Source of the DNA: Candidatus Harrisonbacteria bacterium
Lineage (GTDB): Bacteria; Patescibacteriota; Minisyncoccia; UBA6257; UBA11618
Assembly: GCA_023244835.1 (NCBI GenBank)
Contig: JAHFLN010000004.1
Coordinates: 1 to 46,694 of the forward strand
DNA length: 46,694 nucleotides
Direction: 5' to 3'
Position numbers and translations under genes: made by a program
Notes under the pieces: generated by a model
The model's input: only the letters and a program-made list of their open reading frames with translations
Databases searched by the model: none
Told to the model about the DNA's origin: nothing
In this document: positions 1,398 through 44,434 of the stretch, in pieces
Position numbering within the stretch: the first letter of the stretch is position 1
How the letters are laid out: every line of letters begins with the position of its first letter

Positions 1398-1988
1398 TTA
1401 GTCCTCGCTTCTACCGGGCAGAATCCACCCGATAAACTCAAAATTATTCTGGTAATAATATCGGTCGCTGCTATTTATGAGATTTATCTTCATCCGGCTC
1501 CTCCCCTTCATGAGATAATAGCCGTACGAGGATGATCCTCCGCCAAACGGGAAGAATATCTCGCCATTATTCCGGTCGTAGTAGCTTGAAACGGTGATGC
1601 CGTCAGGCGAGGTAAGGAGGCCGTTCAAGGTCATCGCTTGGGCCTCTTCGGGCGTTATTTCCCTGCTTTCGTTCTTCTGGGTGTCATGTAAGAAGATACG
1701 GCCGGAATAGTTCTCGGTATAATCAGGAACCCCGTTCTTATCAATATCCCGGCTCATATCAACGGAACGTATAACAAGCTTCCCGTTCTCGACCGAATAT
1801 CGTTTTTGCAGATAATCGTTGCACCGGTAGGGATAATTCGTTCCGTCGGCACAGGTCGCGTATATGAAATCGTACCTAGTCGAGAGGAAAAGCGCGGGCA
1901 GATACGTGGAGAGTGCGAAGGCGCCTATAAGCCCGATTGGGAGGATGAAGGCGAGGAGTATCGCGAAGTTTCTCTTGATGAAATCCAT
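1398..1988 (-). CDS. Hypothetical protein with N-terminal transmembrane segment
   Basis: 196-aa ORF, N-terminal hydrophobic helix (FAILLAFILPIGLIGAFAL), adjacent to preceding membrane gene on same strand. Confidence 0.55.
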   Translation of the reverse strand: MDFIKRNFAILLAFILPIGLIGAFALSTYLPALFLSTRYDFIYATCADGTNYPYRCNDYLQKRYSVENGKLVIRSVDMSRDIDKNGVPDYTENYSGRIFLHDTQKNESREITPEEAQAMTLNGLLTSPDGITVSSYYDRNNGEIFFPFGGGSSSYGYYLMKGRSRMKINLINSSDRYYYQNNFEFIGWILPGRSED

Positions 1989-2038
1989 ATAATCACTCTC
2001 ATAATACCCCGCAATTAGAGCGGTTGCAATGAAGCGGA

Positions 2039-2428
2039 TCAGTCAGATCTCCGTTTCCTATGAGCTTTCTTGATCAGGCCGTAATGAGCATCAGTCCCCG
2101 GCTCTTTGCCTCCTCTGTCTTTCACGGCCGAGGGCGGATACTTCTTAGAGGCATCTCTGAGCTTGTCGAGGATGATTGTTTCGGTGTCGAAGCCGAGCAG
2201 GATGCTCATATAGAAGCAGTAGAGGAAGACGTCAGCGAGTTCTTTCTTGATGTCGGCGATTTTCGCCGTGTCGCGTCTGACCGCATCGAGCTCGTGGTTG
2301 GTCCACTGGAAGAGCTCGAGGAGCTCGTTGGCTTCTATGCTTACCGACTTGGCGAGGTCGGAGGGCCGGAGCCGATTCCAGTCCCGATCCTCGAGGAACT
2401 TCTTCGCGGCGCGTTCGATCGTGTCCAT
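2039..2428 (-). CDS. MazG-like nucleotide pyrophosphohydrolase
   Basis: EANELLELFQW ... IKKELADVFLYCF motifs typical of MazG-like/dCTP pyrophosphatase family. Confidence 0.8.
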   Translation of the reverse strand: MDTIERAAKKFLEDRDWNRLRPSDLAKSVSIEANELLELFQWTNHELDAVRRDTAKIADIKKELADVFLYCFYMSILLGFDTETIILDKLRDASKKYPPSAVKDRGGKEPGTDAHYGLIKKAHRKRRSD

Positions 2429-2466
2429 GGCTCATAGTGCCATCCGTTGGGGATTTTGCAATCCAT

Positions 2467-2508
2467 ATAAAAAACCGTCCCGAGAGAAAACCTCTCGTGA
2501 CGGTTCGG
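2467..2508 (-). terminator. Rho-independent terminator (minus strand)
   Basis: Inverted repeat ACCGTCCCGAGAG/CTCTCGTGACGGT with T-tract on the minus strand. Confidence 0.7.
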
Positions 2509-2523
2509 ATTAGCCGCGTGCTT

Positions 2524-3516
2524 TCACGCGATAGCGCGTTCGAATGAGCCCGTGTTCGCGTGCGACATGCGGAGCCAATCGTCGCTCCCCCAGTCTTTGA
2601 GTGCGAAGCTGAGCCTGCGCGCGACGCGCGAGGAGATCTGCTGGATGCTCGACCCCGAAAGGTCGAAGAGTTCGCCGATCTCTTTAAGGCTTTTGTATCG
2701 CGGATAGCCGTTGAGGCAAACCCGCCGTTCGAAGATTTCCCGGTCGCGATCGGAAACATTGAGATCGCGGAGCGTTGCGAGGTAACGCTCATGGAGCGCG
2801 GCATCCGTGACCGATCTCTCCTTCGCGAGAATCCATTCAAAAGGCGTTGGTCCCGGGAAGCGGGGCTCGATCGTGAAGGGGTCCCTGTCCATGACATTCG
2901 TAACAACGGTTTCGGAGATAACTACCGATGCCGCTTTTACGACGAGACAGTCCTGTACCCTGTGAATCGGCACTCCTATACCCTCGGCAATTTCTTGAGT
3001 TGAGGGCGGTATGCCGTGCGTGCGGAGAAAGAGGCTTTGGAATTTCGCGATCTTTCCGTAGAGATCGTATTGGCGTCGTGATCTCCGGATATCCTGTCCG
3101 GAGTAGACGATTGCTTCCTTGATGGCCTGGCGTATGAGGCGCGCGGCATAGGGATGAAACTCCCCGTCCGGAGCGCGGGCGCGATCGAATGTCTCGATCG
3201 CGTTCATGAGGCCGAGAACCCCTTCGTCCATGAGATCGTCGATTTCGAAGTTGGGACAGCGCCCCAGATACGTTCGTGCGATTTTCCGCACGAGGCGAAG
3301 GTTCGACATAAGGGCGCGGTTTCGCGACGCGATGTCTTCCCTGTCGCGCTGATAGCGCGCGATGTGCTCGAGCAGCTCATCGTGCGGGAGGGAATCCGCC
3401 TCTTTCGAGTCGAGCATCCGTCGCGCAGTATCTTTCGTTTCGGCTCGGGGCCTGTCGGCAAGCGCTATGTGCTCCGACGGGGCTCCGTAGCCATCCGTGA
3501 TTGTCTGTCGGCCCAT
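2524..3516 (-). CDS. RNA polymerase sigma-70 family factor
   Basis: Region 2 (NLRLVRKIARTYLGRCPNFEIDDLMDEGVLGLMNAIETFD), region 3 and a region-4-like HTH. Confidence 0.8.
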   Translation of the reverse strand: MGRQTITDGYGAPSEHIALADRPRAETKDTARRMLDSKEADSLPHDELLEHIARYQRDREDIASRNRALMSNLRLVRKIARTYLGRCPNFEIDDLMDEGVLGLMNAIETFDRARAPDGEFHPYAARLIRQAIKEAIVYSGQDIRRSRRQYDLYGKIAKFQSLFLRTHGIPPSTQEIAEGIGVPIHRVQDCLVVKAASVVISETVVTNVMDRDPFTIEPRFPGPTPFEWILAKERSVTDAALHERYLATLRDLNVSDRDREIFERRVCLNGYPRYKSLKEIGELFDLSGSSIQQISSRVARRLSFALKDWGSDDWLRMSHANTGSFERAIA

Positions 3517-3681
3517 GATGACCTCTCCTTATAGATGTAGGACTCGGTTGGTGAATCAATGAGCGGTAAACCATCGCACCCGCAACGACATGGTATGTTT
3601 TCCAGCTATGCGAATGAGATTGCGCGGGTGGTGATGGTAAACAGGGATATGATGCCATGCCTCATCATGCGTGGCAAGAAT

Positions 3682-3716
3682 AAAAAGGCCGGCAGCGCTG
3701 TCGCTGTCGGCCGTGG
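3682..3716 (-). terminator. Rho-independent terminator (minus strand)
   Basis: GGCCGGCAGCGCTGTCGCTGTCGGCC stem with T-tract on minus strand. Confidence 0.6.
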
Positions 3717-3735
3717 GTTTTACCCCTCCCCTCTT

Positions 3736-4626
3736 TCAGTCCTGATTGAGACGTTTACGGAGCCGTTTCAATGCCTCGGCTTCGATTTGGCGCACGCGCT
3801 CGCGGGTGAGACCGATCGCCTCGCCGATCGCCTTGAGCGTTTGCGGCGTAGCGTCGCCATTCAGACCGAATCGCCGCGTGAGAATGTCTCGTTCGCGGGG
3901 ATCCGTTCCTTCGCTTGCGAGTAGCTCGATCATGCGCTCGATCATCTCGATATGCGCGACTGTCTCGTCCGGAGGCGGGTTAGGGTCGCGCTTTTCGAAA
4001 AGGGATCGCTTGACGTCGTTATTGTCGTTATCAAGCCCGTTTTCCGAGAAGACAAACGCGCAGTCGCGCGACTTGAGGCACGCGATGATCTGCTTCGGTT
4101 TCTTTTCGAGGCCTGCGGCAATTTCTTCGACCGTAGGCGAAACACCGAACTCCTTCTCGTACCTTTCGCGGAATTTGAGGATCTTGCCGTAGAGAGTGTG
4201 CTGTCCCTGCGGTATCCGGATAGTATCGTGCGTGTCGATGGCCGCGCGCCTCATCGTCTGCTTGATCCAGTACGAGGCGTACGTCGAGAACTTGGTGCCG
4301 CGGTCGGTTTGAAACATTTCCACGGCCCGCAGGAGACCAGGAACGCCGTTCATGACGATGTCGATGATTTCGGTGCCGGGTTTCACGAAGACTCGCGCGA
4401 TATCCCATACGAGACGGAGATTAGCCTTAACGGCTCGTTTGCCAGCCTCCAGATTGCCATTCGTTTTGAAATCGTCGATAAGGGCGAATAGCTCGCTGTC
4501 AGGGAGAAGGTCAGCTCCGTCGCACATACTCTGAACGATCGATGTGAGGGGCGCCCCCCGCTTTTTTTTCTTTTTGTTTTTTCCGGATGCGGGTCCGGAG
4601 CCGTTCGTGTCGGCTTCTCGGCTCAT
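3736..4626 (-). CDS. RNA polymerase sigma-70 family factor (RpoD/RpoS-like)
   Basis: NLRLVWDIARVFV ... FSTYASYWIKQTMRRAAIDTHDTIRIPQG; region 4 LKAIGEAIGLTRERVRQIEAEALKRLRKRL. Confidence 0.9.
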   Translation of the reverse strand: MSREADTNGSGPASGKNKKKKKRGAPLTSIVQSMCDGADLLPDSELFALIDDFKTNGNLEAGKRAVKANLRLVWDIARVFVKPGTEIIDIVMNGVPGLLRAVEMFQTDRGTKFSTYASYWIKQTMRRAAIDTHDTIRIPQGQHTLYGKILKFRERYEKEFGVSPTVEEIAAGLEKKPKQIIACLKSRDCAFVFSENGLDNDNNDVKRSLFEKRDPNPPPDETVAHIEMIERMIELLASEGTDPRERDILTRRFGLNGDATPQTLKAIGEAIGLTRERVRQIEAEALKRLRKRLNQD

Positions 4627-4714
4627 GGCCCTGTTCCTTTCTGGTGAGTGGTTAGTGAGTCAAAGGACGGGGCTATTATGCCATGGATAGAAATGATTGG
4701 CAATGAGTTAATAA

Positions 4715-4942
4715 GGGATGGGATTCGCCCCTCGCCGCCTTAAAGCTAAAGAACGTCGTCATCGCCTCGCTCCTTTCCGACGTGATTTTAAAATTCAAAC
4801 CTCTCCGCTTTGCGTATCGGGATAATTTTAAAATCAGGAATCTTCGGCTCCTATTCGGAGCCTGCGACCCGCGGTTCGAATCCCGCTTCACCGTACTATA
4901 GCGAAAAAAGAATGGCATGGAGCCACTCTTTTTTCGCTACTG
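4715..4942 (-). repeat. tRNA-trailing structured repeat (Ser copy) with hairpin next to the tRNA
   Basis: On the tRNA strand: GGGATTCGAACCGCGGGTCGCAGGCT... to ...GGGGCGAATCCCA; shares TCGAACCGCGGGTCGCAGGCT with the element after tRNA-Gly; internal GATTTTAAAATT/AATTTTAAAATC inverted repeat. Confidence 0.65.
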
Positions 4943-5026
4943 CGGAGGAGGTGGGATTCGAACCCACGAGACCCTTTCGAGTCGAGGATTAGCAATCCTC
5001 TGCCTTGACCGCTAGGCTACTCCTCC
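4943..5026 (-). tRNA. tRNA-Ser(GCT)
   Basis: Acceptor GGAGGAG/CTCCTCC, anticodon loop TTGCTAA in GAGGA/TCCTC stem, long variable arm, T-arm GTGGGTTCGAATCCCAC. Confidence 0.93.
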
Positions 5027-5096
5027 AGTCCTGCGCAGTATATCGCGATATCGCCGCTTGATCAATCGGCTCGCTATCCCCTATCATCCGCGTCAT

Positions 5097-5579
5097 ATGG
5101 TTGCGATACTTCACAATGTGAGAAGCGCGCATAACGTCGCCTCGATATTTCGCACCGCGGACGGCGCGGGTGTTTTAAGGCTCTATCTTTGTGGCATCAC
5201 GCCTGGGCCGCTCGATGCGTTCGGTCGCAATCGGAAAGATTTTACGAAGGTGGCGCTCGGTGCCGAAAAGACGGTTCCGTTCGAAAAAGTTGCGCGCACG
5301 GCAGACTGCATTCGTCATCTGAAGGCTCGTGGCTATTTCATATGCGCCTTGGAGCTTGCGAGGGGTGCGGTCCCCTACTACGAAGCAACGTTCCTCGCGG
5401 CGAATCGTGAAAAAATCGCGATCGTGGTCGGCCATGAGACGGAGGGGATTCCGAAATCGATCCTCGCGCGGTGTGATGCGGCGATCATGATACCCATGCG
5501 CGGGGAAAAGGAATCGCTTAATGTCTCCGTCGCCTTCGGCGTGATCGCTTTCGAAATAGCCCGGCATCGGCTACCATAA
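5097..5579 (+). CDS. SpoU/TrmH family RNA methyltransferase
   Basis: NVRSAHNVASIFRTADGAG, VVGHETEGIP and IPMRGEKESLNVSVAFGV motifs; ORF open from 5058, internal ATG at 5097 preferred. Confidence 0.88.
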   Translation: MVAILHNVRSAHNVASIFRTADGAGVLRLYLCGITPGPLDAFGRNRKDFTKVALGAEKTVPFEKVARTADCIRHLKARGYFICALELARGAVPYYEATFLAANREKIAIVVGHETEGIPKSILARCDAAIMIPMRGEKESLNVSVAFGVIAFEIARHRLP

Positions 5580-10175: not shown

Positions 10176-10246
10176 GCGGGTATAGTACAATGGTAGTACG
10201 TTTGGTTGCCAATCAAAATACACGGGTTCGATTCCCGTTACCCGCT
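10176..10246 (+). tRNA. tRNA-Gly(GCC)
   Basis: Acceptor GCGGGTA/TACCCGC, anticodon GCC, T-arm CGGGTTCGATTCCCG. Confidence 0.93.
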
Positions 10247-10543
10247 CAAGCTAATACAAAAGATCCCTTTATGAAGGGGTCTTTTGTATTAGCTTCGGGT
10301 AGATAATGAAATCGAACCGCGGGTCGCAGGCTTCTCCATAAGAAGCCGAAGATTCCGAGCCGCGGAAGCGGCGAAGGGGCGATTCCCGTTTTAATGCCGA
10401 AGGTCCCCTGTTTATTCCAATCGCCGCGCGATTGGTTATAAACAGCGACCTCGACCGATCCGCCGTTCGGCGGAGAGGAAGAGGCAATTCCCCGTTTTCA
10501 ATTAGGAGATGAGATCGAACCGCAAGCCCGCTATTTTCAATGA
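10247..10543 (+). repeat. tRNA-trailing structured repeats (Gly copies, two units plus a third truncated)
   Basis: Long hairpin AAGCTAATACAAAAGA..TCTTTTGTATTAGCTT, then units starting ATCGAACCG and ending GGCGATTCCCGTT / GGCAATTCCCC. Confidence 0.65.
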
Positions 10544-23609: not shown

Positions 23610-23866
23610 AGGGATTCGCCTGCCGCTTCGCGGCAGACCATCGATTTTCATAGTCGGCTGTAAAGCCTCCTTGAAAATCGTGGCCTGCGGTTCGATTTCA
23701 TATTAATAAGGGGAATCACCCCCTTCGCCGCTCGCGAGGCTATTCATATGGTAGGAGGGAATCGCCTCTCCCTCATACGATTCGGTCGAGACGCTGAATT
23801 TTAATAATAAGCCGTTACACGGCTTCTTTTAAAATTCGCGCCAACGCTTCGATTCCTCCTCTAATA
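23610..23866 (-). repeat. tRNA-trailing structured repeats (Val copies, about two units)
   Basis: On minus strand: AGGAATCGAAGC...AGCGTCTCGACCGAA...GGGAGAGGCGATTCCCT and AAATCGAACCGCAGGC..GATTTTCAAGGAGGC-TTTACA-GCCGACTATGAAAATC..GGCAGGCGAATCCC. Confidence 0.65.
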
Positions 23867-23914
23867 CCCACACATGCAAATACCCTCGCGTTGGAGGGTA
23901 TTTGCATGTGTGGG
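23867..23914 (-). terminator. 21-bp perfect hairpin overlapping the tRNA-Val 3' end
   Basis: CCCACACATGCAAATACCCTC-GCGTTG-GAGGGTATTTGCATGTGTGGG; includes tRNA 3' CCCA. Confidence 0.7.
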
Positions 23915-23982
23915 CAATGGGGGAATCGAACCCACGGCATCCTCTGTGTAAAAGAGGCGCTCTGCCACTGAGCTAATTGCCC
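23911..23982 (-). tRNA. tRNA-Val(TAC)
   Basis: Acceptor GGGCAAT/ATTGCCC, anticodon loop TTTACAC in CCTCT/AGAGG, T-arm GTGGGTTCGATTCCCCC (one mismatch). Confidence 0.9.
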
Positions 23983-40078: not shown

Positions 40079-41059
40079 TCATCGGGTTTTCTTTTTTATC
40101 CTTCGATTCGCGTTCCTGATACGGTCTTCGCGCCACTTCCACTTCCTATAGAGGTTGAGGAGTTTTTGTTCTCCGCGGGTTGCGAAGACATACCTCCTGC
40201 TCACGAGCCGGATCACGCTCATAAGTCCGTTGATTATGCTCGGCGGGGGATAGACCCCTGCCGTGCGTATCGCGGAACGCAGGGCGTTCCGCACGCGGTG
40301 GAAGAAGTGGCGAGGAACGAAGAGTCTTCCATCCTTGTCCATACCGATGCCGTTTATAACAACCGGCCCGCGCTGGATATCATGCGCGAACGCCTTCTCG
40401 TCATGGATCGCCATGCCGCTCGATTCGATGATGGCGCGTATGCCGTCACGGATCGCGCGGCTCTTCCGCTTCCCATTAACCCGGTGGCCGATAGGCTTCG
40501 GGGAGGAAATCGTGATGTCGTCGAGATAGCGGGTATACGTGAGGCCGTGTTTCGCGCAGTAGGCGCCAAGCGGCACGTCGATCAGTACGCCCGCGTAGAG
40601 GTTGAACCAGTCGGGAGAGGACGGCGCGCCGGTCATAAGCCCGCCTTCCTCGGCCATCACGAAGCGTTTCAGCACTTCTTCGACCTCGTAATACCAGTCT
40701 CCGGTAGAGACTGATCGGGGATCGCATTGCCCGAGGCACCATATAAGCCGTTCGAGGTTCACGCTCGGGTAGGCGCCTCGTATGTCATAAAGGAGAAAGA
40801 AGCGGTTTCCCTTATGGCGTTTCGCGTTCACGAGGGTTGAGCCGCCGCGCACGGACCCGGTCGCATAGGGCGACGGGGGGCAGCGGTCCATGAGATGCAT
40901 ACGGATCCGCTTGTGTACGATGCGCATCGCGACGTTCGGCGCATAGATGATGCGCTGTTTGCGCCGGCGAGAAATGGGATTCCAGTCGTCGAAGACGGAT
41001 CGGTTGAACAGGGGCTCGTGCGCAAGATCGCGCATGAGCATGGAGACAGAGAGATGCAT
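40079..41059 (-). CDS. Retron-type reverse transcriptase
   Basis: RKQRIIYAPN, NAKRHKG (NAxxH), FFLLYDIRGAYPSVN, GLMTGAPSSPDWFNL, GLTYTRYLDDITISS (YxDD), VINGIGMDKDGRLFVPRHF (VTG-like); RBS AAAGGA. Confidence 0.88.
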   Translation of the reverse strand: MHLSVSMLMRDLAHEPLFNRSVFDDWNPISRRRKQRIIYAPNVAMRIVHKRIRMHLMDRCPPSPYATGSVRGGSTLVNAKRHKGNRFFLLYDIRGAYPSVNLERLIWCLGQCDPRSVSTGDWYYEVEEVLKRFVMAEEGGLMTGAPSSPDWFNLYAGVLIDVPLGAYCAKHGLTYTRYLDDITISSPKPIGHRVNGKRKSRAIRDGIRAIIESSGMAIHDEKAFAHDIQRGPVVINGIGMDKDGRLFVPRHFFHRVRNALRSAIRTAGVYPPPSIINGLMSVIRLVSRRYVFATRGEQKLLNLYRKWKWREDRIRNANRRIKKKTR

Positions 41060-41381: not shown

Positions 41382-41621
41382 GATGCGGGGGCAGGGAATG
41401 CGGCTATCCTTGCGCTTAAAGCATCGCTTTGCGAGTCCGAAGAAACTACGCCGATCATGGACGTGAGAGCGTAGTTCCGATTCGAAAGAATCCGGACTGA
41501 CCATAGGCTTGCATGACGCCCGAGGGGCGTCAGCGCTCGCGCCGCGGAACGCAGCGCGAGAGACACTATGCCTCATCATGAGGTCTTATGAATATGCCGC
41601 AGAGCCTAATGCCCCCGCATC
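41382..41621 (-). ncRNA. Candidate retron msr-msd non-coding RNA
   Basis: Perfect 12-bp a1/a2 inverted repeat GATGCGGGGGCA(41621-41610)/TGCCCCCGCATC(41393-41382); TTAG after a1; hairpins 41571-41583, 41536-41560, 41514-41532; branched element 41434-41498; same strand and upstream of the RT. Confidence 0.7.
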
Positions 41622-41693: not shown

Positions 41694-41774
41694 GCCCGGG
41701 TGGCGAAATGGCATACGCACATCACTTAAGATGATGCGCCGCAAGGCATGTGGGTTCGACCCCCACCCCGGGCA
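41694..41774 (+). tRNA. tRNA-Leu(TAA)
   Basis: Acceptor GCCCGGG/CCCGGGC, anticodon loop CTTAAGA in CATCA/TGATG, T-arm GTGGGTTCGACCCCCAC. Confidence 0.92.
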
Positions 41775-42074
41775 CATAAGGTCGAACCGAAGGCGCCCGT
41801 TTTCAAGGAGGCATGAGCCGACTATGAAAACGGAGCGTCTCGACCGAAGGGAGAGGCGACCCCCACCCCGGGCACATAAGGTCGAACCGAAGGCGCCCGT
41901 TTTCAAGGAGGCATGAGCCGACTATGAAAACGGAGCGTCTCGACCGAAGGGAGAGGCGACCCCCACCCCGGGCACATAAGGTCGAACCGAAGGCGCCCGT
42001 TTTCAAGGAGGCATGAGCCGACTATAAAAACGGAGCGTCTCGACCGAAGGGAGAGGCGACCCCCACCCCGGGCA
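41757..42074 (+). repeat. Three 100-bp tandem repeat units downstream of tRNA-Leu, each ending with a copy of the tRNA 3' end
   Basis: Period exactly 100 bp (GGCACATAAG at 41771, 41871, 41971); each unit ends CGACCCCCACCCCGGGCA; single-base difference (ACTATGAAAA vs ACTATAAAAA) in unit 3. Confidence 0.95.
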
Positions 42075-42274
42075 CGGTAGGGGATTTCATTGACCCTGCC
42101 CCTCGTTCGGTGGTATTATACAATTTCGTTGGTTCTTTGGCAGAGTCCTGCAACACCCCTGCGAAAAGGAAGGGAGGAAGAGCGGGCAGACGATGGTTCG
42201 GAGGGCGCGTCATGCGCTTGAAGATGTTTTCGTTTAACCCATTTCATGATTTCTCGTAGGTTAAGGAACCTAAC

Positions 42275-42868: not shown

Positions 42869-44434
42869 ATGAATAAGAAATCGATTTCGTGGAGCGCGTC
42901 GCTTGCGGTCATAAGCACGCTTGCGACATTTACGCCTACTGCGATGGTATGGGCGCAGACGGGTGGCGTGAGCATGACGCCTCCGCAGCAAGGCGGTCAG
43001 ATGGGTGGGGGTGTGATGCCGATGGGTGCGCCTATGGCGGGCAGCGGCACGGTTATGGGGGGGCAGAATCCGACAACGGGCGGAAATAATAAGATGGGTA
43101 TGGGCGGCGGCATGGGAATGAGTCAGCAAATGGGAGGCGGGCAGGGGATGATGATGGGCGGTCAACACGAATCGCCACTTCGTCCGTACGTCGAGAAATT
43201 CAATACGTATGTCACGAGGTCTGCGGCATACGCGACTGATATCGGTGCGGTGATCCCGGACTTCGCGGATTCACTTCGGGAGTTTTCTGAAAATCTGACG
43301 GCGGGACAGCCTGATCCGGAAGATGTGGCTGCATTCACGTCCGATACGCAAGACCTAAAGGCGCAGATCGATCAGTGGAATTCTGTCGCGCCGAAAGGCA
43401 AGAAAAAGACGCTCTTGGGACAGATCAGCAATACCTGCAAGAATCTTTTAAGGGACTTGGGAACATTCGGCCAGGTGGCGCAGATAGAGAGCACGACGCG
43501 CGAAGCCATGACGACGATGCAGGTTGATGCGGCAAAGGCGCGGGCCGCGCAGGCGCAAAACAGTATTGCGGAGATGAGGACGCAGATGCAGACCATGGGT
43601 CAGCCGGGAGTGAATGGAACGGGCATGAACGGCATGAACGGCATGAACGGCATGAACGGCATGAACGGCATGAACGGCATGAACGGCATGAACGGCATGA
43701 ACGGCATGAACGGCATGAACGGCATGTCGCAAAATGGCATCAATGGAATGAATGGGATGATGGGTATGCCGAAGACTGCCGATGAAGCGGCAAGAATGTA
43801 CGAGCAGACGAATCCCGGCCAGAGGTATACTCAGGCCATGCGCGACCAGTTCAATACTATGCAGCAGGGCGGCGGCATGGGCATGATGCAGCCTGGTCAA
43901 TCGATGATGAGCGGCGGTCAGCCTGGTTCTCAGCCGACTGGCACGGGGGCGGGAACGCAGGGAAGGGTAGGTCAGTCGGCAGGTACGCCGCAGAACGGCC
44001 AGCCGATGATGGGTGGCATGGGTACGATGGGATCGATGCCGAGAACGGCGGATGAGATGGCAAGGATGTATACGCAACAAACCGGCCAGCCATACACCCA
44101 GGCTATGCGCGACCAGTTCAATGCGATGCCGCAGAATGGGGGTACGGGTATGATGCCGAACGGCCAGCCGATGATGAATGGGCCGATGAGCGGTCAGCAG
44201 CCTCCGCAGGGCCAGTATCAGCCGCAAGGTCAGCCAGGGCAGGGTGGTCAATCTGGGCAGCAATTCGGAGGTCAACCGCAAGGCGGTCAGATGCAAGGTC
44301 AGCCTCCTCCGCAGGGTCAGCCGACGGGTGGTCAGCAGCCCCCTCCGCCCCCGCAAGGAGAGCAGAAGAGTAGCGTGAATGATACGCTTGGCGCAGGATT
44401 CTGGGGAGGATTCTTCCGGTTCCTCGGGTTCTAG
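42869..44434 (+). CDS. Secreted low-complexity Met/Gly/Gln/Asn-rich protein
   Basis: Signal peptide MNKKSISWSASLAVISTLATFTPTAMVWAQ; helical domain ~110 aa; (MNG)n repeats; proline/glutamine/glycine-rich C-terminus. Confidence 0.75.
   Translation: MNKKSISWSASLAVISTLATFTPTAMVWAQTGGVSMTPPQQGGQMGGGVMPMGAPMAGSGTVMGGQNPTTGGNNKMGMGGGMGMSQQMGGGQGMMMGGQHESPLRPYVEKFNTYVTRSAAYATDIGAVIPDFADSLREFSENLTAGQPDPEDVAAFTSDTQDLKAQIDQWNSVAPKGKKKTLLGQISNTCKNLLRDLGTFGQVAQIESTTREAMTTMQVDAAKARAAQAQNSIAEMRTQMQTMGQPGVNGTGMNGMNGMNGMNGMNGMNGMNGMNGMNGMNGMNGMSQNGINGMNGMMGMPKTADEAARMYEQTNPGQRYTQAMRDQFNTMQQGGGMGMMQPGQSMMSGGQPGSQPTGTGAGTQGRVGQSAGTPQNGQPMMGGMGTMGSMPRTADEMARMYTQQTGQPYTQAMRDQFNAMPQNGGTGMMPNGQPMMNGPMSGQQPPQGQYQPQGQPGQGGQSGQQFGGQPQGGQMQGQPPPQGQPTGGQQPPPPPQGEQKSSVNDTLGAGFWGGFFRFLGF
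43622..43720 (+). repeat. 11 perfect copies of the 9-bp unit GGCATGAAC encoding Gly-Met-Asn
   Basis: Read directly; 99 bp uninterrupted. Confidence 0.97.

Follow-up and report, generated by a model that had tools for sequence, protein, structure and literature searches.

We analysed a 46,694-nt stretch of a Candidatus Harrisonbacteria genome (hereafter the window), in which tRNA-Leu(TAA) is followed by a tandem array. With a probability of roughly 0.6, this array has arisen by tandem amplification of a small, non-autonomous mobile element, probably a selfish one, whose insertion site is the 3′ end of tRNA genes. Its unit belongs to a family, apparently not described before, of very small folded elements located behind many tRNA genes of Patescibacteria; no description of such a family was found by literature search. 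The direct observations on which this reading draws are the placement of the elements at tRNA tails, the duplication of these tails, inverted and direct tails that match the host tRNA, a conserved fold and the spread of the cores.

The tRNA-Leu(TAA) array and its relatives

An initial annotation had described three head-to-tail units with a 100-bp period, each rebuilding the tRNA 3′ end. This was borne out: TRF reported period 100 over 41757-42075 (3.2 copies, 99% match), and an exact 19-bp tail, CGACCCCCACCCCGGGCAC, recurs with 100-bp spacing at four positions, the first of them within the tRNA (Table 1). The unit had been divided into about 82 bp of element and 18 bp of tRNA tail; its make-up was correctly recognized, the actual lengths being 81 and 19 bp. 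As had been noted, the units are nearly identical: the first two are the same and the third carries a single difference. Each unit also contains an antisense copy of the T-arm (GGTCGAACC in the first). Array copy number is possibly under-counted, the genomes being draft assemblies and at least two of them derived from metagenomes, and the assembly itself may be in error at this point. Around the array, cmscan against Rfam (E ≤ 1) returned tRNAs and no other family.

Table 1. Positions of features in the window; S and S′ denote sense and antisense tRNA tails, P2 and P3 internal helices, and R1 and R2 the covariance models described in the text.
Feature	Position	Strand	Basis and remarks
tRNA-Leu(TAA), host gene	41694-41775	+	ARAGORN, Rfam RF00005; tail 41757-41775 is the repeated segment S
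Unit 1	41776-41875	+	TRF, R1 match 41778-41863, fold, sequence; S′ (GGTCGAACC) 41780-41788, P2 about 41792-41839, P3 about 41838-41857, S 41857-41875
Unit 2	41876-41975	+	TRF, R1; same sequence as unit 1; S 41957-41975
Unit 3	41976-42075	+	TRF, R1; differs from units 1 and 2 by one substitution; final S 42057-42075
AAGGAGG word	41804-41812		
Family member behind tRNA-Val(TAC) 23910-23982	23758-23856	-	R1, sequence
Second family member behind tRNA-Val(TAC)	23612-23699	-	R1, BLAST
Family member with compact-type core behind tRNA-Gly(GCC) 10176-10247	10308-10386	+	R2, sequence
Second family member behind tRNA-Gly(GCC)	10387-10491	+	R1
Diverged family member behind tRNA-Ser(GCT) 4942-5026	4791-4883	-	R2, sequence
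Retron-like reverse transcriptase	40079-41059	-	RVT_1
Conserved region upstream of the reverse transcriptase	41382-41621		Framed by a 12-bp inverted repeat
Nearly perfect 9-bp tandem repeat	43617-43726		12 copies

Three features of the array or its surroundings are recorded for themselves. In the long-form core, the inner P2 hairpin contains AAGGAGG, a perfect Shine-Dalgarno-like word, close to ATG codons; the word occupies the same site in other long-form copies and is not retained in compact forms. The best PADLOC matches of the reverse transcriptase are retron types VI and II-A. It stands at the same place in the congener G002 (86% identical); in G001 and G003 it is absent, and tRNA-Cys directly neighbours tRNA-Leu there; the conserved region upstream of it, framed by GATGCGGGGGCA/TGCCCCCGCATC, may be its RNA. 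Finally, the 9-bp tandem repeat codes for NGM repeats within a 550-aa ORF rich in Gly, Met and Gln and without Pfam match.

By BLAST, nine further relatives of the array unit were found elsewhere in the 658-kb source genome (G000), nearly all of them just 3′ of another tRNA and on its strand, by comparison with the 49 tRNA matches of that genome. Of this genome, 616,674 of 658,147 bases were read as stretches, the remainder being covered by genome searches alone. A loose regular expression gave mostly noise and was replaced by two covariance models, R1, built from 11 copies, and R2, for the compact core type. R1 detected the family in each of the four genus genomes searched (16, 7, 13 and 2 matches) and in three other genomes of the order (101 searched). 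When both models were applied to the stretches of the four genus genomes, 41 of 47 copies were located 3-242 nt 3′ of a same-strand tRNA. Four of the other six reside on the 4-kb contig C15, which has no tRNA and whose repeat is almost the same as that at the start of contig C1, behind tRNA-Gly(TCC); a fifth stops 29 bp short of a contig end, and the sixth is parted from tRNA-Ser(GGA) by an inserted restriction-modification island. A further 411 kb gave no family match at E ≤ 1. With R2, 14 of 388 genomes of the class, from 11 genera and in a patchy distribution, were found to carry the family, model E-values being rough and these wide searches so strictly filtered that weak copies are missed. 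Wherever a tRNA was readable, the R2 match lay behind it, mostly with that tRNA's own tail.

Some contigs of the source genome deserve separate mention. The starts of two contigs, C1:1-104 and C15:1-267, lie in almost identical copies of the element behind tRNA-Gly(TCC); the assembly probably broke there on a longer tandem array. The apparent restriction-modification island, at C10:40547-44300 (L079, about 1547-5300), lies directly 3′ of tRNA-Ser(GGA) and separates it from the family copy at C10:44410; it is bounded by an inverted repeat, AACTTTGAACC/GGTTCAAAGTT, and holds ORFs of 257 aa, 586 aa (LexA-like/methyltransferase) and 331 aa. At C28:3135-3457 (minus), four close-packed tRNA-like genes (Thr, Thr, Asn and Trp) are present, some scoring weakly; G002 has a similar Thr/Thr/Asn group, and the other tRNAs of the source genome are mostly single.

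Host-matched tails and a conserved fold

Including their paired tails, the elements measure 64-125 nt. Well-kept copies display a common order: the tRNA with its tail S, usually a palindrome, an antisense tail S′ (...GGAATCGAACC), the core and a sense copy of S. The palindrome is perfect and terminator-like, and since its sequence varies from tRNA to tRNA it was left out of the element definition. The sense tail corresponds to the host tRNA from the T-loop to the discriminator; the right end of the element is thus a direct copy of the host tail, and the tRNA stays whole. Examples are tRNA-Trp (CGAATCCTGGTGCCCCCGC) and tRNA-Arg (CGATTCCTCATGGGCGCAC) of G024, tRNA-Asp of G062 (CGAGTCCCGTCCACCGCGC) and tRNA-Gly of G154 (CGATTCCCGCCGCTCGCAT), exact host tails occurring in other families and orders too. 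Antisense tails can be equally faithful: that of tRNA-Trp in G001 is a perfect 18-nt complement of its tRNA, and that of tRNA-Tyr in G443, directly after CCA, is perfect over 16 nt.

Host matching was also evident in counts. A tRNA's own tail was found downstream at 15 of 18 positions or better for 18 of 147 tRNAs; the corresponding rate for other tRNAs' tails from that genome was 0.45%. At the four positions beside the T-loop, antisense tails matched their host at 83-88%, compared with 40-82% for other tRNAs (41 tRNAs, anchored on the antisense T-loop). At the junction itself, all tRNAs have the T-loop word TTCGA in common. Moreover, the antisense tail tracks changes of the tRNA, for instance at tRNA-Leu(TAA) in G000 versus G002. 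At tRNA-Trp of G000, CCTTGTG is found in the tRNA and in the distal tail while the antisense tail is still like the CCTAGTG of the congeners. This pattern suggests, from sequence comparison, an exchange between direct tails, and such exchange could yield part of the host matching without any copying at insertion.

S′ and the distal S pair to form helix P1, which together with P2 and P3 makes a three-way junction. In the alignment 95.9% of cells are paired and 13 pairs show double changes; the covariation score of 0.346 compares with 0.118 for shuffles and with values no higher than 0.103 for slid structures. The strand of the tRNA folds more stably in 44 of 51 copies and the complement in 6, with one tie (p = 5e-7). 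The folded single strand, whether RNA or ssDNA, may therefore be the tRNA strand, a result which is only suggestive because the copies had been found with a model of that strand. Counts of G-T versus A-C pairs agree in part: G-T is in excess in P3, not in P2.

Spread between tRNA genes and competing explanations

After removal of the tails, 50 of 60 cores had their closest relative behind another tRNA species, with identity up to 97%. Thus, cores have spread between tRNA genes, the tails being the host's own. The initial annotation had called for empty and multi-copy sites to be sought in the lineage, and had named a copy number fixed across relatives as what would speak against mobility. The outcome was the reverse of the latter: empty and occupied orthologous sites both exist, and the array is present in none of the three congeners (0/3). 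Of the 16 tRNA species occupied in the genus, 12 lack the element at an ortholog in another member, where absence may also mean a decayed copy. The cleanest case is tRNA-Met: G002 has two tails with 73 bp between them, the second leading into ATATA and the downstream gene, and in G000 and G003 the tail abuts directly on ATATA or ATATT and that gene. This insertion has no terminator palindrome. At tRNA-Leu(TAA), no core was found in the other three congeners, G002 retaining the palindrome and the antisense tail; an older insertion, followed in G000 by terminator loss and tandem growth, is a plausible history. The family shares with the small non-autonomous mobile repeats that its copies are dispersed, related, devoid of a protein and variably present at orthologous sites.

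We propose that the element is mobilised in trans through a single-stranded form (RNA or ssDNA) of the tRNA strand, and that both tails would be taken from the new host at insertion, with TTCGA of the T-loop possibly acting as priming or pairing homology for tail copying. The array may have grown by repeated insertion or by unequal exchange between identical 19-bp tails, presumably after loss of the terminator hairpin usual between tRNA and element. On these data head-to-tail reintegration is no likelier than slippage or unequal exchange. A more specific scheme, which we put forward only tentatively and would not bet on, is that of a target-copying element: its structured single strand would prime with both ends at TTCGA and copy the tRNA tail both ways. 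If so, one core could colonise any tRNA gene, rebuilding from the target both the tRNA 3′ end and its own closing helix.

Four points tell against the mobile-element reading: no enzyme was found that tracks with the element; the genomes, all single assemblies, showed neither an excised form nor a donor molecule nor variation within a population; the retained fold and the coevolution of antisense tail and tRNA could reflect a host function; and gene conversion between tails could mimic host matching. The third of these leads to an alternative that we consider unlikely and still worth serious attention, in which the elements would be structured RNAs of use to the host, located in tRNA trailers and serving processing, decay or regulation. 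The antisense tail would pair with the T-arm of the tRNA itself or with the distal tail and so constitute a switch between misfolded and free tRNA. The strong covariation, the better folding of the tRNA strand and an antisense tail that follows tRNA changes (tRNA-Leu(TAA), G000 versus G002) would all fit, as would the E. coli rtT unit, alike in anatomy and annotated as the small RNA RttR. However, a terminator-like palindrome usually stands between tRNA and element, which would therefore often be outside the tRNA transcript; the occupied tRNAs differ among close species and many tRNAs have no element; and cores are common to unrelated tRNAs.

The same palindromes and tails could also be held responsible in another way, without any mobile unit: palindromes beside tRNAs would provoke template switching and slippage, copying the tRNA tail forwards and backwards. 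Tails and terminator palindromes do meet as inverted repeats, slippage would fit identical tandem units, and the tails in common at tRNA-Trp of G000 suggest exchange between repeats. Such local accidents do not create related folded cores at unrelated tRNAs and in unrelated families, and the clean tRNA-Met insertion occurred where there is no terminator palindrome; we regard this explanation as improbable.

An ordinary tyrosine-integrase element or its remnant (satellite or island), with the tRNA tail as attachment core, is about as improbable on our estimate. A tail duplication from the T-loop to the tRNA end is the classical attachment pattern of such elements, and this is the duplication seen here; at tRNA-Met it is accompanied by an empty orthologous site (G002 versus G000 and G003). 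The restriction-modification island between tRNA-Ser(GGA) and an element copy might be cited as well. Nonetheless, one attachment core cannot match many different tRNAs, and the inverted tail and covarying fold would be left unexplained. The initial annotation had inferred a minimal integrative element with the T-loop and acceptor 3′ half as its core. The segment from T-loop to acceptor end as duplicated core and the empty and occupied sites stand, but an ordinary one-core element does not: the single fixed attachment core must be given up, the duplicated core being the host's own and differing by tRNA, with an inverted copy and a covarying three-way junction besides.

The search for enzymes and carriers bears on this as follows. 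One Xer-like gene was found in G000 and one PF00589 gene in most carriers, and none was found in G003; most carriers apparently possess the housekeeping copy only, so that a dedicated tyrosine integrase was rejected as candidate, though the enzyme could be supplied externally. For 7 of the 15 carriers, among them G000, G001 and G003, the search gave no Y1 transposase (Y1_Tnp), and for none of the 15 did it give Cas1, the casposase. Among viral contigs, four of five patterns gave no match, and the fifth gave two, without tRNA and without the rest of the element, which were taken as chance; there is thus no convincing viral contig with the element.

Lastly, it is hardly credible that the neighbouring reverse transcriptase copies element RNA into tRNA tails, even if this retron-like enzyme ends 635 bp upstream of tRNA-Leu(TAA), both congeners richest in copies (G000 and G002) have it and a structured tRNA-strand molecule suits an RNA template, since it is not consistently present in carriers (elements occur in G001, 78% complete, and G003, where no RVT_1 protein was found), reverse transcriptases are common in element-free relatives (52 of 101 genomes), and this one is preceded by a conserved region of its own that bears an inverted repeat and looks like a retron RNA.

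If the mobile-element reading is right, the family represents a kind of mobile or selfish element that avoids damage to essential tRNA genes by bearing the tail of whichever tRNA it adjoins, and it suggests that the highly reduced genomes of Patescibacteria still hold active-looking parasitic non-coding DNA.

Relation to known systems

Small non-autonomous mobile repeats include MITE-like elements, REP/BIME and the Rickettsia palindromic elements. In bacteria such repeats are short, non-coding, dispersed and foldable and lack a protein of their own (review PMC2229807, and general knowledge). To this extent, the family resembles MITE-like, REP/BIME and Rickettsia elements. Where such repeats have fixed terminal repeats, however, the family carries at its ends host-tRNA copies in both orientations. 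It is also bound to tRNA 3′ ends, and for 7 of 15 carriers, the source genome among them, no Y1 transposase was found.

Casposons target tRNA 3′ ends, among them that of tRNA-Leu, and produce short duplications of the target; in the case of M. mazei, the duplication is 14-15 bp, 4 bp of which lie in the tRNA (PMC6977970). Entry at tRNA 3′ ends with a short target duplication is thus common to casposons and the family, but casposons do not have the anatomy described here; they have fixed terminal inverted repeats and need Cas1, found in 0/15 carriers. Tyrosine-integrase elements duplicate the tRNA tail from the T-loop and keep the gene whole, usually with one tRNA per integrase. The family shares this T-loop-onward duplication and the intact tRNA; in contrast, those elements have no inverted tail or conserved single-strand fold, and no dedicated integrase was found for the family. 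Integron attC sites are short imperfect inverted repeats whose structure is conserved above sequence, and in both respects the elements are like them. The attC core boxes RYYYAAC/GTTRRRY were not seen in the element on inspection by eye, and no integron-type integrase was found in the source genome, whose only tyrosine recombinase is Xer-like.

The nearest precedent is provided by the terminal repeats of E. coli tyrT/tyrV (rtT, rttR, RF00391); statements on these rest on RefSeq annotation, in which the repeat yields RttR, on measurements made here and on general knowledge. We measured 19-nt tRNA tails at a spacing of 178 bp. Like those of the family's array, the rtT units follow one another head to tail immediately after a tRNA, and every one holds that tRNA's 3′ end. 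Besides the known sense copy, the tyrV/rttR unit of E. coli K-12 (NC_000913.3:1287066-1287330) contains an antisense tRNA-Tyr tail, GGGGAAGGAT. This 10-nt antisense tail, a length reached by 2 of 2000 shuffles, is again as in the family, and the predicted fold is closed by antisense and sense tails. Unlike the family, rtT, examined at one locus, has a longer unit and an unrelated core, and the window contains no RF00391 match. Under the tentative target-copying scheme, the rtT repeats would have arisen by this process too, either independently or as a distant case. More generally, the mobile-element reading, if right, gives a framework in which the E. coli tyrT/rtT repeats, and tRNA-tail duplications where no integrase is found, can be tested.
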